A stretch of DNA of 16,935 nt, from contig JAEUMU010000132.1 of assembly GCA_016791325.1 (NCBI GenBank), forward strand, positions 1 to 16,935. Reading direction: 5' to 3'. The DNA comes from Hyphomonadaceae bacterium. Its GTDB lineage: Bacteria > Pseudomonadota > Alphaproteobacteria > Caulobacterales > Aquidulcibacteraceae. The notes beneath the pieces were generated by a model. That model saw only the letters and a program-made list of their open reading frames with translations. It was not told the origin of the DNA and ran no database searches. Each line of letters opens with the position of its first letter. Position 1 is the first letter of the stretch. The translations under genes and the position numbers were made by a program. Shown here in pieces: positions 10,890 to 16,079 of this stretch.

Positions 10890-11077
10890 GGCGCGTCGCT
10901 AGCGCAGAGGCGCGCCGACGGCAAGGAACTGCGAATAAGACGAAACCCCGCGCGAGCTCGGAACGGCGGCAAACCCTCGCTGGAGAAATTAAGCTTGAGG
11001 CGCGAGCGCTCACGGGGAGCGCGCTGGACCCCACGACGCCAATTGAGGTGCAATCTCCCAAACTCTGGGAGGATGAC
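10890..11077. promoter_or_regulatory. Divergent intergenic region fabD / VPEID-CTERM gene
   Basis: This 188-base region must hold the promoter of the long fabD run on the minus strand and that of the sorting cassette on the plus strand. It contains a small A/T-rich patch (10984-10994), an inverted repeat GCGCTC-ACGGG-GAGCGC (11006-11022, overlapping the 8-base palindrome GAGCGCTC), and a second inverted repeat at 11055-11071 next to the cassette's start. I could not identify a convincing -35/-10 pair in either direction. Confidence 0.5.
11054..11072 (+). promoter_or_regulatory. Hairpin masking the Shine-Dalgarno of the VPEID-CTERM gene
   Basis: CTCCCA (11055-11060), loop AACTC, TGGGAG (11066-11071), extendable by a T-G pair (11054/11072). 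The 3' arm contains the Shine-Dalgarno GGGAGG (11067-11072), five bases before the ATG at 11078. In RNA the ribosome-binding site would be paired, which would lower translation unless the hairpin is opened. The geometry is seen in the sequence; the regulatory role is inferred. Confidence 0.6.
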
Positions 11078-11344
11078 ATGACGAACATCACCAAGACGAT
11101 CACTGGCGCGGCTGCAGCTTTCGCCGCCATGACCAGCGCGGCCTCCGCGAGCACGATCTGCATCTTGGGAATCTGCATCAACCTCGGCGGCGGCGGTGGT
11201 GGCGGCGGTGGCGGGGGCGGTGGCGGCGGCGTGCCCGCGGCCCCAGAGATCGATGTCAGCCAGGGCTTTGCGGCGCTTGCCATCGTGCTGGCGGCGGCGT
11301 TGTTCGTGCGCGAGCATTTCAATCGCCGACGCGCGCAACGTTAA
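11078..11344 (+). CDS. VPEID-CTERM sorting-domain protein, poly-glycine type (XrtE substrate)
   Basis: An 88-residue exported protein and likely substrate of the exosortase encoded 30 bases downstream. In order it shows: a signal peptide (1-24, cleavage probably after AASA); a short segment with two cysteines, C28 and C33 (TICILGICINL); 15 consecutive glycines (37-51); VPAAPEIDVSQG (52-63), which contains the PEID core of the VPEID-CTERM tripartite sorting signal; a membrane helix (about 64-79); and a basic tail (HFNRRRAQR). If both signals are removed, only about 30 residues remain, half of them glycine. The start at 11078 is supported by GGGAGG five bases upstream; the frame is open further back to 10883, but that part is not signal-like. 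The Shine-Dalgarno lies in a hairpin. The function of the mature peptide is unknown: structural surface material or a processed peptide are both possible. Confidence 0.85.
   Translation: MTNITKTITGAAAAFAAMTSAASASTICILGICINLGGGGGGGGGGGGGGGVPAAPEIDVSQGFAALAIVLAAALFVREHFNRRRAQR
11186..11230 (+). repeat. GGN trinucleotide tract encoding 15 glycines
   Basis: Fifteen successive GGN codons (11 GGC, 3 GGT and 1 GGG, apparently drifted from a GGC repeat). Such a tract can change length by slippage in steps of three, lengthening or shortening the glycine linker without a frameshift. The antisense strand reads as poly-proline, which produces a spurious ORF there. Confidence 0.9.
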
Positions 11345-11374
11345 GACCTGCAAGCGAGAGCCCAGGGGGCGGGC

Positions 11375-13015
11375 GTGAGCGCCATTGGCATCGGAGAGCA
11401 GACCCGCGCTTGCGCGCCGGGCGCGTGGCGGGTGTTTCTCCGCGCCGCCGCGATAATCAGCTTCGTGCTGCTGCAACTCGCGCTCATCGACCGCTACTAC
11501 CATTATCCATGGGCTGTGACCGCGCCCGACCCGCTTTGGAGCGGAGCGAACACGGCGCTGAAATGGATGTGTTACGCAGCCATTTTCGGAGCCGCGGCGT
11601 TCGCGTTGCTGGTACTGGCGCGGGCGCAGGAGACGGCGCGTATGTGGCTTGCCGCCGCGCAGAGGCGGCGCTGGGGACGCTGGTTGGCGGGCGAATGCGC
11701 TTTGCTTGCCGTGCTGGTGGCGATGCTGCCGATATTCCGCACGCCGCATGAACACGCGCCTTGGGCGGCGTTTGCAATCTGGCTCGGCGTGGGGGCGGCG
11801 ATGTTGGCGTGCGCGGCGCTGGCGCTGGCGCCGTTTTCGTTCTGGCGCACATTCCTGGCGCGCAACACCAGCGCCTACGTAGTGGCGCTGCTGACAGGCG
11901 GATTGACCTTCGCAGCGTTGCCGCTTTCGCAGAATTCCTGGGACGCGCTCTCCTCAGCGACGCTGCACGCATCCTATTTCATCTTGAGTCTGTTCGACGA
12001 CGCCGCGTTCGTCGATCCTGCCGCCCGCCATTTGGGCGCTGGCGATTTCGTGGTGCGCATAGATGCGGCGTGCTCAGGCTATGAAGGCATTGCCCTCGTG
12101 CTCGCGATGTTCAGCCTCTACATCTTTGCGTTCCGCAAGGATCTGCGCTTTCCGCACGTGTTTCTACTGCTGCCGCTGGCGGTGGCGGCGATCTGGATAT
12201 CCAACGCGCTGCGCATTGCCGCGCTGATCGGCGTCGGCGCTTATATTTCGCCAGAGATCGCGCTTGACGGTTTTCATGCGCAGGCGGGTTGGGTGATGTT
12301 CCTGGCGGTGACGCTTTCGTTGATGGCGGCCACTCATCAGATCGCTTGGTTTCGCGCGGAGCGCGCGCCTGCCAGGCCCGTGAACGATCCTGCACTTGTG
12401 CTGGCAGGCGCGCTGCTCGCGCCGTTTGTGGCGCTGATGGGCGCGCGCATCGCCGGGGGCATGTTCGGCCCGGAGGCGTATTGGATAGGCGCGGCGGCGA
12501 TCCTGGCGCCGGCGGGTGTGATCTGGGCCTGTTGGGGGCGGATCAAGCCGTTACTGGGGGGACTCACGCTCGAGCCGATCTTGATCGGGCTGATGGTGGG
12601 AGCACTTTGGATCGCGACGGAGCCCGCAATTGAGGGCGACGCGCTAGGCGCGTGGCTGGCGGGGTCGCCCCCCGGCGAGGCCGCGGCCTGGGTGGCGCTG
12701 CGGCTGTTTGGTTTCGTTCTCATCGTGCCGCTGGCGGAGGAGCTGGTCTTTCGCGGCTACCTGCATCGCGCGCTGGTGAAGCGCCGGTTCGAGCACGCCG
12801 CGCCCGCCGCGTTCGGATGGGCCGCCTTCCTCGTCACCAGCCTGCTGTTCGGAGCCATGCACGGGCGCTGGCTGGCGGGAGCGCTGGCGGGCGCTGCGTT
12901 TGCGGTTACGCTTTACCGCACCCGATCGCTGACGGGGCCTATTGCCGCGCATGTGGCGGCCAACGGCCTGATCGGGGCTTATGCAGTGGCGACGGAAACC
13001 TGGGCGCTCCTCTGA
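11375..13015 (+). CDS. xrtE: Exosortase E / CPBP intramembrane protease fusion
   Basis: Polytopic inner-membrane enzyme that recognises VPEID-CTERM proteins. The 546 residues have many membrane helices. The exosortase domain (about 165-325) carries all three active-site residues: Cys233 in DAACSGYEGIAL, Arg280 in WISNALRIAAL and His301 in DGFHAQAGW. The C-terminal CPBP (Abi) protease domain (about 400-540) carries EELVFRG (Glu455, Glu456, Arg460), FGAMHGRW (His496) and HVAANGL (His526, Asn530). This two-domain arrangement defines the XrtE type; stand-alone exosortases lack the protease part. The N-terminal 160 residues are extra membrane segments. The start is GTG at 11375, 30 bases after the substrate gene, so both are probably one operon. 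The next gene, rpsF, has its own leader. Which half performs the cleavage is not visible from sequence. Confidence 0.92.
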   Translation: MSAIGIGEQTRACAPGAWRVFLRAAAIISFVLLQLALIDRYYHYPWAVTAPDPLWSGANTALKWMCYAAIFGAAAFALLVLARAQETARMWLAAAQRRRWGRWLAGECALLAVLVAMLPIFRTPHEHAPWAAFAIWLGVGAAMLACAALALAPFSFWRTFLARNTSAYVVALLTGGLTFAALPLSQNSWDALSSATLHASYFILSLFDDAAFVDPAARHLGAGDFVVRIDAACSGYEGIALVLAMFSLYIFAFRKDLRFPHVFLLLPLAVAAIWISNALRIAALIGVGAYISPEIALDGFHAQAGWVMFLAVTLSLMAATHQIAWFRAERAPARPVNDPALVLAGALLAPFVALMGARIAGGMFGPEAYWIGAAAILAPAGVIWACWGRIKPLLGGLTLEPILIGLMVGALWIATEPAIEGDALGAWLAGSPPGEAAAWVALRLFGFVLIVPLAEELVFRGYLHRALVKRRFEHAAPAAFGWAAFLVTSLLFGAMHGRWLAGALAGAAFAVTLYRTRSLTGPIAAHVAANGLIGAYAVATETWALL

Positions 13016-13020
13016 GACCC

Positions 13021-13048
13021 TTGCTTCCGGGACGGAAATGAGTATTTT
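13021..13048 (+). promoter_or_regulatory. Possible rpsF operon promoter
   Basis: TTGCTT (13021-13026) and TATTTT (13043-13048) are spaced by 16 bases, right after the xrtE stop and about 110 bases before the rpsF start. Both boxes are imperfect, so this is only a candidate. A 5-bp repeat TTCCG-GGA-CGGAA (13025-13037) overlaps it. Confidence 0.3.
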
Positions 13049-13066
13049 CCGCGCCTTCGCGACTGG

Positions 13067-13128
13067 CGGCCCCGAGGCAAATCCTTGTGCTCGGGGTCCA
13101 TCGTTTTGGCGGGCCATCTTCCCCCGCC
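13067..13128 (+). promoter_or_regulatory. Structured rpsF mRNA leader, candidate S6:S18 autoregulatory element
   Basis: The 144-base leader of rpsF can form two hairpins. One is CCCCGAG (13070-13076) with CTCGGGG (13090-13096), extendable by a G-T and a G-C pair and with an inner CAA-ATCC-TTG stem. The other is GGCGGG (13108-13113) with CCCGCC (13123-13128). Many bacterial rpsF leaders bind the S6:S18 complex to repress the operon, through a structure with a conserved CCG. I cannot confirm that this leader fits that consensus. Confidence 0.4.
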
Positions 13129-13159
13129 GAGGCGCCGCCCGTCCATCCGGAAGGACACA

Positions 13160-14606: not shown

Positions 14607-16079
14607 ATGGTCCCGGCGATGACGAGCCAACCATCGCTCCCGCTTTCAGCCCCAGCCGCGGCGCCGCAACCGCGCGCCATGCCCCATGACCTTGAGGCCG
14701 AACAAGCGCTGCTCGGCGCCATCCTGCACGATAACGAGACCTACAACCGCATCACGCCGCAGCTGCAAGACAAGCATTTCTACGATCCGGTGCACGGGCG
14801 CATCTTTGCGGCATGCGTTGAGCGTATCGCGCGCGGCGAGCTTGCCGATGGCGTGACCCTGAAGGAGCGCTTCACGCGCGACGGCGGCATTCAGGAGATC
14901 GGCGGTGCGATCTATTTGATGAAGCTGCTCGATGCGGCCGCGCCCCTCTCCGCGCAGGCGCAATCCTATGCGCAGCTGATCTATGATTTGGCGTTGCGGC
15001 GCGAACTTATCCGTATCGGCACGGTGATTACCGATCTCGCAGAAAATCCGCCCGACGACCACAAGGCCAGCGACATCATCGAAGAAGCTGAGCGCACGCT
15101 GTTCACATTGGCCGAAACCGGGACCGGGCACCGCGGCTTCCAGGATTTCAAGAGCGCAATCACCGCTTCCATCGAAGTTGCGACAGCGGCGAAAAACCGG
15201 GGCTCTGACGTTTCCGGGATCGGCACCGGCTTTCGCGATCTCGACCATTTGCTGGGCGGTCTGCACAAATCTGACCTGATCATCCTCGCCGGGCGCCCTT
15301 CCATGGGCAAAACCGCGCTGGCGCTGAATTTGGCGATGAACGTTGCGCGGGCGAAGCAGAAGGCCGGCAAAAGCACCGAGCATACGGGTGGCACGGTCGG
15401 GTTCTTCTCGCTGGAAATGTCCGGCGAACAATTGGCCACGCGCCTGCTCTCGGATTTCGCAGGCATCGAATCCCACCGCATTCGTCAGGGCAAGATCGAC
15501 ACGGGCGAGTATGGCCGGCTGGTCGACGCCGCCGCCGAGTTGCACACGCTGCCGCTCCACATCGATGAAACCGGAGGCATTTCCATCGCCCAGCTGCACA
15601 GCCGGGCGCGCCGGCTCAAACGCACATCGGGCCTCGATCTGGTGGTGGTGGACTATCTGCAGTTGGTGACGACGAGTTCACGCAAGAGCGATGGGCGTGT
15701 GCAGGAGGTGAGCGAGGTCACCCAAGGGCTGAAGGCGCTGGCCAAGGATCTGCACGTGCCGGTGATCGCGCTCTCACAGCTCTCGCGGCAAGTGGAATCG
15801 CGCGACGATAAACGCCCGCAGCTCTCCGACCTGCGCGAATCTGGCTCTATCGAGCAGGACGCCGATATCGTCATGTTCGTCTATCGCGAGGAATACTATC
15901 TAAGCCGCGCCGAACCCGAGCGCGGCACCGAAGCGCACATGACCTGGCAGGCTAAGAAGGACGCCGTTGCCAATCGCGCCGAGCTGATTGTAGGCAAGAA
16001 CCGCCACGGCCCCATCGAAACGGTGCATCTCAATTTCCACGGCCAGTTCACCCGCTTCAGCTCCATCTCCCGCGCCTAG
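14607..16079 (+). CDS. dnaB: Replicative DNA helicase DnaB
   Basis: Hexameric 5'-3' helicase of the replication fork, partner of DnaG primase. It has 490 residues with the start at 14607; an ATG at 14619 gives 486, and neither has a good Shine-Dalgarno. The N-terminal domain (about 26-130) begins with PHDLEAEQALLGAIL. The RecA-like domain has Walker A GRPSMGKT (229-236), FFSLEMSGEQLATRLL (266-281), Walker B LDLVVVDYLQL (343-353), ALSQLSRQVESR (388-399) and DLRESGSIEQDAD (408-420). No intein is present, unlike in some dnaB genes. The gene is set off from rplI by a terminator, followed almost at once by alr, the usual alphaproteobacterial order. Confidence 0.97.
   Translation: MVPAMTSQPSLPLSAPAAAPQPRAMPHDLEAEQALLGAILHDNETYNRITPQLQDKHFYDPVHGRIFAACVERIARGELADGVTLKERFTRDGGIQEIGGAIYLMKLLDAAAPLSAQAQSYAQLIYDLALRRELIRIGTVITDLAENPPDDHKASDIIEEAERTLFTLAETGTGHRGFQDFKSAITASIEVATAAKNRGSDVSGIGTGFRDLDHLLGGLHKSDLIILAGRPSMGKTALALNLAMNVARAKQKAGKSTEHTGGTVGFFSLEMSGEQLATRLLSDFAGIESHRIRQGKIDTGEYGRLVDAAAELHTLPLHIDETGGISIAQLHSRARRLKRTSGLDLVVVDYLQLVTTSSRKSDGRVQEVSEVTQGLKALAKDLHVPVIALSQLSRQVESRDDKRPQLSDLRESGSIEQDADIVMFVYREEYYLSRAEPERGTEAHMTWQAKKDAVANRAELIVGKNRHGPIETVHLNFHGQFTRFSSISRA

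Follow-up and report, generated by a model that had tools for sequence, protein, structure and literature searches.

An exosortase E/VPEID-CTERM cassette between fabD and rpsF and the fixed spacing of its sorting tail

A tiny gene with a C-terminal sorting signal, directly followed by a gene for a fusion of an exosortase and a CPBP protease, raises the questions of whether the two form an enzyme-substrate pair, what such a pair would make, and what the fused protease would contribute. Here, we address these questions for a locus in a window of 16,935 nucleotides (the whole stretch of DNA analysed) from a Hyphomonadaceae bacterium. An earlier note, made from the letters of the window, had read the locus as a self-contained exosortase E (XrtE)/VPEID-CTERM pair with a single substrate.

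Enzyme and substrate in the window and their genomic site

The features of the locus, all on the + strand, are as follows.

11067..11072, +, GGGAGG, a Shine-Dalgarno-like sequence 5 bases ahead of the substrate start (read directly)
11078..11344, +, VPEID-CTERM substrate of 88 aa, from ATG at 11078 to the stop at 11344 (TIGR04161 match)
11078..11149, +, predicted signal peptide of 24 aa, with A-S-A preceding the site (AxA rule-of-thumb script)
11159..11176, +, Cys28-x4-Cys33 in the predicted exported segment (read directly)
11186..11230, +, run of 15 consecutive glycine codons (read directly)
11243..11254, +, PEID motif, Pro56 to Asp59 (profile match and sequence)
11309..11314, +, Arg78-Glu79, in which Glu79 is the acid at +23 from Pro56, at the predicted cytosolic helix end
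11324..11341, +, basic tail RRRAQR (read directly)
11375..13015, +, XrtE, a fusion of exosortase and CPBP glutamic intramembrane protease, 546 aa, from GTG at 11375 to the stop at 13015 (TIGR04162)
12053..12340, +, exosortase core, residues 227-322 (TIGR04178), with Cys233 at 12071-12073, Arg280 at 12212-12214 and His301 at 12275-12277
12689..12967, +, CPBP/Rce1-like domain, residues 439-531 (Pfam PF02517)
12737-12742, 12860-12862, 12950-12952 and 12962-12964, +, the CPBP residues Glu455-Glu456, His496, His526 and Asn530 (positions checked)
13016..13154, +, rpsF leader, adjoining the XrtE stop, with 88.5% identity to the gap between fabD and rpsF in a cassette-less relative

Several lines of evidence support the pairing. 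First, the large reading frame scores 216.8 bits (E 6e-64) against the exosortase E model TIGR04162, which has a cut-off of 150, and 217.4 bits in the genome frame, bearing out its assignment to this family. It also exceeds the cut-offs of TIGR04178 and TIGR03008 (the general exosortase/archaeosortase signature and the exosortase-associated CAAX-protease model), and Pfam finds Exosortase_EpsH and an Rce1-like domain in it (PF02517, 58.1 bits). The seven residues named in the earlier note (Cys233, Arg280, His301, Glu455, Glu456, His496 and His526) all lie where it had placed them, and its coordinates for both genes and the 30 bases that separate the substrate stop from the XrtE start were right. 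Second, the small protein begins with a hydrophobic stretch and an AxA site, a signal peptide as predicted by a simple script, and ends with an APEID motif, a helix and a basic tail, the VPEID-CTERM layout by both profile and direct reading. The profile match spans residues 55-85 and profile positions 1-30 of 31. The elements of the matching sorting signal are thus present as claimed, but the 88-aa protein alone scores 30.8 bits (E 2.2e-7), just under the curated TIGR04161 cut-off of 33; in the genome-frame search it reaches 32.5 bits, rated at the cut-off with frame neighbours counted. Third, neither of the two outcomes that the earlier note had named as refuting its reading was seen: the enzyme matches the exosortase E model, and the signal is present in orthologous small proteins. 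Altogether, judged from the sequence, the window holds a genuine and complete XrtE/VPEID-CTERM cassette of a system that is already annotated. The minimal enzyme-target pair is thereby supported, but an arrangement of this kind is not new, passages of two earlier papers having described one (PMC3237569, PMC11980579).

The description of the substrate as single holds for an assembly that is 65.29% complete, in which no second convincing VPEID-CTERM tail was found, but relatives often have 2 to 4 paralogues. The scan for further tails, covering about two thirds of the genome, returned one other TIGR04161 match, of 12.9 bits and with a stop inside, and the PEP-CTERM model TIGR02595 has no match at E 0.01 in this genome. 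The predicted exported part of the window's substrate comprises 31 residues, with CxxxxC and the 15 glycines. CxxxxC is common to both substrates of a congener (G132, locus L081), and in the L033 substrate the Cys pair is spaced one residue wider; the exported parts of the L080 and L082 substrates have no Cys pair.

AlphaFold predicts the enzyme well, substrate residues 1-70 at under 50 pLDDT and the substrate helix with moderate confidence at best. Foldseek found nothing similar in the PDB at E 0.001, nor did a PDB sequence search at 0.01. No promoter-like sites were found. Terminator-like sites number six against 2.7 expected, five of them inside XrtE, and Rfam and tRNA scans gave no match. 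A natural fusion of substrate and XrtE by read-through of the substrate stop was considered and set aside: the two genes share a frame in the window, L080 and L082, with a chance expectation of 1/3, L080 has a second stop, and in L081 they are out of frame.

The cassette lies between fabD and rpsF. Among the 17 other window genes scanned with Pfam (up to position 16079), 16 match families (an LptD fragment at the window's start, SurA, PdxA, KsgA-type, guanylate kinase, YicC, YceG, FabF-type, acyl carrier, FabG-type, DUF1697, FabD, S6, S18, L9 and DnaB) and one has no match; none is a polysaccharide synthesis gene. XrtE exceeds its cut-off in 15 of 299 genomes of the order; in the window's genus these are G000, G117, G132 and G271, with XrtE split in two frames in G207. 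Of 30 genomes of the genus, 26 have an rpsF match. In 17 of the 26, fabD lies ≤1.5 kb upstream of rpsF with no XrtE between them, in two (the window and G207) XrtE stands between the two genes, and in seven, G132 included, neither arrangement occurs within the stretch. The right edge of the cassette is sharp, since the first 139 bases after the XrtE stop match the cassette-less fabD-rpsF gap at 88.5%. In G117, fabD adjoins rpsF and the cassette is on another contig; in G132, the cassette follows fabD and two more genes precede rpsF. From this comparison of sequences, the fabD-rpsF gap is a site at which the cassette is gained or lost.

Three further observations concern this site and its occupants. 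The two G132 genes between cassette and rpsF (L081:11705-13276) encode a collagen-repeat protein and an OmpA-domain protein. The rpsF leader (window 13016-13154) shows good conservation among the relatives that were compared; a ribosomal-protein leader structure may lie in it, although no Rfam family is over threshold there. The XrtE match of L033, from a Terricaulis MAG, equals that of L083 (G207, the window's genus) and falls in two overlapping pieces in different frames, through error or decay. This split copy is 61% identical to the window's XrtE, and the closest full-length row in the tree is 51% identical.

Tails and exported parts across XrtE loci

To ask what else the small proteins share, we scanned 67 XrtE loci for tails: 22 from the order and other searches, five plasmid loci and 40 from a single family that was searched later and gave 42 positives among 394 genomes. 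L083 and L033 are identical in sequence and figure as two loci only in the count of neighbours at 69 loci described below. L148 is part of that count and of the active-site table and is left out of the tail count, its enzyme scoring 139.5, under the XrtE cut-off. A tail of PE, helix and basic residues was found within the fetched stretch at 63 of the 67 loci, 94 tails in all; the four loci without one are L068, L185, L199 and L201, the last with XrtE at a contig end. The scans required PE, a hydrophobic stretch and basic residues and left the distance to the +23 position free. Because PE was a search criterion, its constancy in the tails proves nothing.

The spacing behind PE is nearly constant. 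Counted from the PE proline, exactly position +23 holds an acid in 91 of the 94 tails, from 63 loci, or in 86 of 89 distinct tails. When these are clustered at 70% identity, every member of 16 of 19 clusters has it, two clusters alone holding 38 and 28 distinct tails. In the first set, Glu is at +23 in 49 of 53 tails, at the inner helix end and preceded by Arg or Trp. The loci of the second set were added once this had been observed, and there 40 of 41 tails, from 37 loci, have the acid (a false motif match in L212 had been dropped before these counts). Ala occupies +10 in 86 of 88 tails. Of 11 PEP-CTERM tails, taken from six of the genomes, none has an acid beyond offset 5 when counted from the last PxP, and their first basic residue lies at 18-21. 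The +23 spacing is probably implicit in the 31-position VPEID-CTERM model. Tails at L034, L204 and L150 are without the acid, as is that at L148, and the CPBP sites of their enzymes are intact; thus, the acid is not strictly required for the protease. L148, on a Novosphingobium plasmid, encodes an exosortase-CPBP fusion (139.5) followed by a 205-residue frame ending in PEID and a helix, and is perhaps a sister system.

As to controls, 14 of 15 related genomes with a full or split XrtE have a tail match at E 1 and two of the 15 exceed the TIGR04161 cut-off, which therefore seems to be a strict one in this lineage. It is not exceeded by any of 22 same-genus genomes lacking a full XrtE, a weak negative control since 13 of the 15 XrtE genomes also stay below. 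The best control match, a 35-aa frame in G246 without PEID that covers profile positions 8-29, reaches 18.6 bits and so outscores the true tails of G117 (17.9) and G271 (18.0). The motif scan gave 42 matches in 40 XrtE loci (442,271 bases), one of them false and dropped, and seven in 69 other loci (207,587 bases), of which five are PEP-CTERM proteins fetched as such; the +23 acid is present in none of the seven. Thus, the motif scan separates XrtE loci from others better than the model score does.

The exported parts, by contrast with the tails, vary. Their lengths rest on rule-of-thumb signal-peptide predictions by the first of two rules tried, the second having given some odd sites. The predicted exported part is ≤62 residues in 80 of 84 proteins and ≤12 in 44 of the 84, mostly from family f5, in which arrays of two to four substrate copies are usual. 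In the first set, all 47 are ≤62 residues and 36 are ≤12, 32 of the 36 from f5; the other 11 range over 26-62 residues, with six in the window's genus (30-62), where these parts are rich in Gly or His, one each in G626 (36) and G320 (32), and three in f5 (26-30). In the second set, in which 37 of 41 tails could be given a start and hence a length, 8 of 37 are ≤12 residues and 33 are ≤47, with four at 80-183, three of them from G1160; a length of 2 at L187 reflects a poor signal-peptide call. A cargo of ≤12 residues, seen in most of the first set and in a minority of the second, was therefore abandoned as a general rule; the predicted lengths indicate that exported parts of a few residues are characteristic of f5 and occur here and there outside it. 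They also indicate that a folded domain would usually not fit into the exported part of XrtE substrates, with larger cargo possible. A PEP-CTERM search in 12 of these genomes gave 11 matches in six, in frames of 157-404 aa.

Some loci depart from the common form. At L215 (G1160), three proteins of 187-243 aa (starts uncertain) carry a PE...WE tail at one XrtE locus, a large-cargo exception. The arrays of L073, L074 and L078 each hold one longer substrate, with 26-30 exported residues and two far-apart cysteines, beside copies of 6-8 residues. On three Rhodobacterales plasmids (L144:242-3139, L145:1139-3160, L147:118-3087), the tiny substrate and xrtE are immediately preceded by a gene for a protein of 673-989 aa; each of the three proteins ends in DCLC, and two have an SdrD B-like annotation.

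Active sites, proposed working and rival readings

Of 66 enzymes, 63 retain all eight active-site residues, among them L148, which is under the XrtE cut-off; L033 and L082, which have frameshifts, were excluded from this table. The exceptions are L217, a split frame, L078, in which His526 is Leu, and L068, which is without Cys233, His496 and Asn530. The one joint loss, in L068, and the otherwise strict joint conservation argue that the two sites serve one pathway. The L068 protein itself (L068:10222-11925, G026) is an XrtE homologue of 317 bits in a genome without a VPEID match, with the three residues replaced, and possibly a dead or repurposed copy. Just upstream, a 116-aa frame keeps the helix and RER and has no PE, and is possibly a remnant.

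The charges of the loops between the AlphaFold helices alternate, Lys/Arg-rich loops marking the inner side. This places Cys233 in an outer loop and Glu455-456 and His526 near inner loops; the inner position of the whole CPBP site is uncertain, since His496 lies at the outer end of its predicted helix. The sequence supports the pairing, the conservation of the motifs, a ruler-like tail and the joint conservation of both sites.

We suggest the following working, each step of which we infer. The small protein would be exported and signal peptidase would remove about the first 24 residues, leaving a short Cys/Gly-rich peptide on one membrane helix. XrtE would bind this helix in the manner of a ruler, PE lying on the periplasmic side close to Cys233, Arg280 and His301 and the +23 acid on the cytosolic side. 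Cys233 would then cleave near PEID and hand the peptide over to an amine of an acceptor in the envelope, for which an aminolipid is the likeliest candidate; the product would thus be an envelope-displayed peptide rather than a folded enzyme. The fused CPBP site (Glu455-Glu456, His496, His526 and Asn530) would trim or remove the leftover helix. That the cassette transfers such a peptide to an acceptor in the envelope, possibly an aminolipid, while the protease acts on the leftover helix, is in our estimation not far short of an even bet. A bolder and wider form, which we regard as unlikely, would make XrtE a two-ended enzyme in general, with an outer Cys site at PE and an inner glutamic-protease site marked by the +23 acid, acting on one helix of fixed length; its usual products would be short peptides joined to aminolipids, of a few residues in one family, ribosomal lipopeptides that replace sorted proteins.

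The aminolipid is the leading guess for the acceptor on three grounds. First, a fatty acid hydroxylase (FA_hydroxylase) gene adjoins 13 of 69 XrtE loci: 11 of 11 in f5, one in f57 (G350) and one in f27 (G1031). Fourteen of these proteins served to build the search profile; the G1031 case was not one of them. All four neighbours scanned with Pfam match PF04116, and the two scanned with NCBIfam, out of 16 hydroxylase frames found, have OlsE as their best model at 97.2 and 68.3 bits, far below its cut-off of 475. Second, archaeosortase genes adjoin lipid-headgroup genes in some species and archaeosortase substrates are lipid-anchored, according to passages of PMC7157517. Third, a title in the reference list of an aminolipid review (PMC11631085) links N-acyl amino acid synthases to PEP-CTERM/exosortase. 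The hydroxylase as a required partner was considered and rejected for the window: it is absent at the window locus, and the genus's higher-scoring homologues occur in genomes without XrtE.

XrtE could instead be a hydrolase that releases the short peptide, in which case the small genes would encode peptides for secretion, signals for example. In other bacteria, relatives of the CPBP protease take part in peptide processing. Exported segments of ≤12 residues in 44 of 84 proteins are too small to fold, and the paralogues of one array share the tail and differ ahead of it. The window's 15-glycine segment is unlike a signal, however, and the substrates of the archaeal relatives are lipid-anchored in the part of PMC7157517 that bears on them; we consider release unlikely.

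We rate as similarly improbable a transfer of the kind proposed above with a surface polysaccharide as the acceptor. An acceptor other than a lipid would fit the two plasmid loci, in Leisingera and Alloyangia, in which polysaccharide genes stand next to xrtE, and epsH lies nearly always amid polysaccharide genes in the sections of the founding PEP-CTERM paper that treat it (PMC1569441). Against this, the 17 scanned window genes include no polysaccharide synthesis gene, the nearest genes being fabD and rpsF, and the neighbour at 11 of 11 f5 loci is a fatty acid hydroxylase.

It is less probable again that the small protein is a partner or regulator of XrtE rather than its substrate. It consists mostly of a membrane helix and tail, and the fixed tail length and conserved small residues (Ala at +10, 86 of 88) are as in helix packing; yet up to four variants per locus, and the same tail on three large proteins at L215, fit a signal that is carried by substrates. 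That the helix tail is itself the product, the CPBP site freeing a self-acting hydrophobic peptide and the exported stub being waste, would agree with a conserved tail and a variable stub, but an exported part of 30-62 Gly- or His-rich residues in the window's genus is odd for waste, and we regard this as very improbable. Because the exported part is a short peptide, of 5-12 residues in many relatives, the product would be a small molecule that could be identified directly when lipid or polysaccharide extracts are analysed by mass spectrometry. Concrete residues with which to ask about the role of the fused protease are provided by the fixed spacing and by the conservation of both sites together.

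Comparison with known systems

The cassette most closely resembles exosortase E/VPEID-CTERM (TIGR04162/TIGR04161), with a fused exosortase-CPBP enzyme over the cut-off and an adjacent protein with PEID, helix and basic tail. In plasmid records, xrtE is the annotated name in 12 of 13 matches, and the small protein is named VPEID-CTERM in two of the five annotated loci examined. The window differs from this known system in its fabD-rpsF site, in that no polysaccharide synthesis genes were found, and in a substrate that by itself is just under the cut-off. In the collection of papers searched, none of the matches listed names VPEID-CTERM; the three papers that contain the letters VPEID deal, by their titles, with fimbriae binding, coal outbursts and PHB production. 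We know of no bacterial exosortase whose product has been identified.

MrtJ/JDVT-CTERM and myxosortase also use a CPBP sorting protease. To our knowledge, neither includes an exosortase domain. The window's CPBP domain scores 40.6 against the MrtJ model, below its cut-off of 75. The relevant passages of PMC11980579 describe a neighbourhood of only MrtJ and one target, and a JDVT-CTERM signal with an invariant Cys, unlike that of the window. Archaeosortase A shares the enzyme superfamily and the use of a C-terminal signal. We know of no fused protease in it. A further difference is that its signal is PGF and its targets are surface glycoproteins, as given in part of PMC7157517.

PEP-CTERM/EpsH has in common with the window a signal peptide, a short motif, a helix and a basic end; none of its 11 tails from six related genomes has the +23 acid, and the frames that they close are longer. 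A passage of PMC1569441, from 2006, records four cases in which EpsH-like and CAAX-protease-like domains are fused. The cassette itself belongs to a known system; the features brought out by comparison give a sharper form to the question of what exosortases make.
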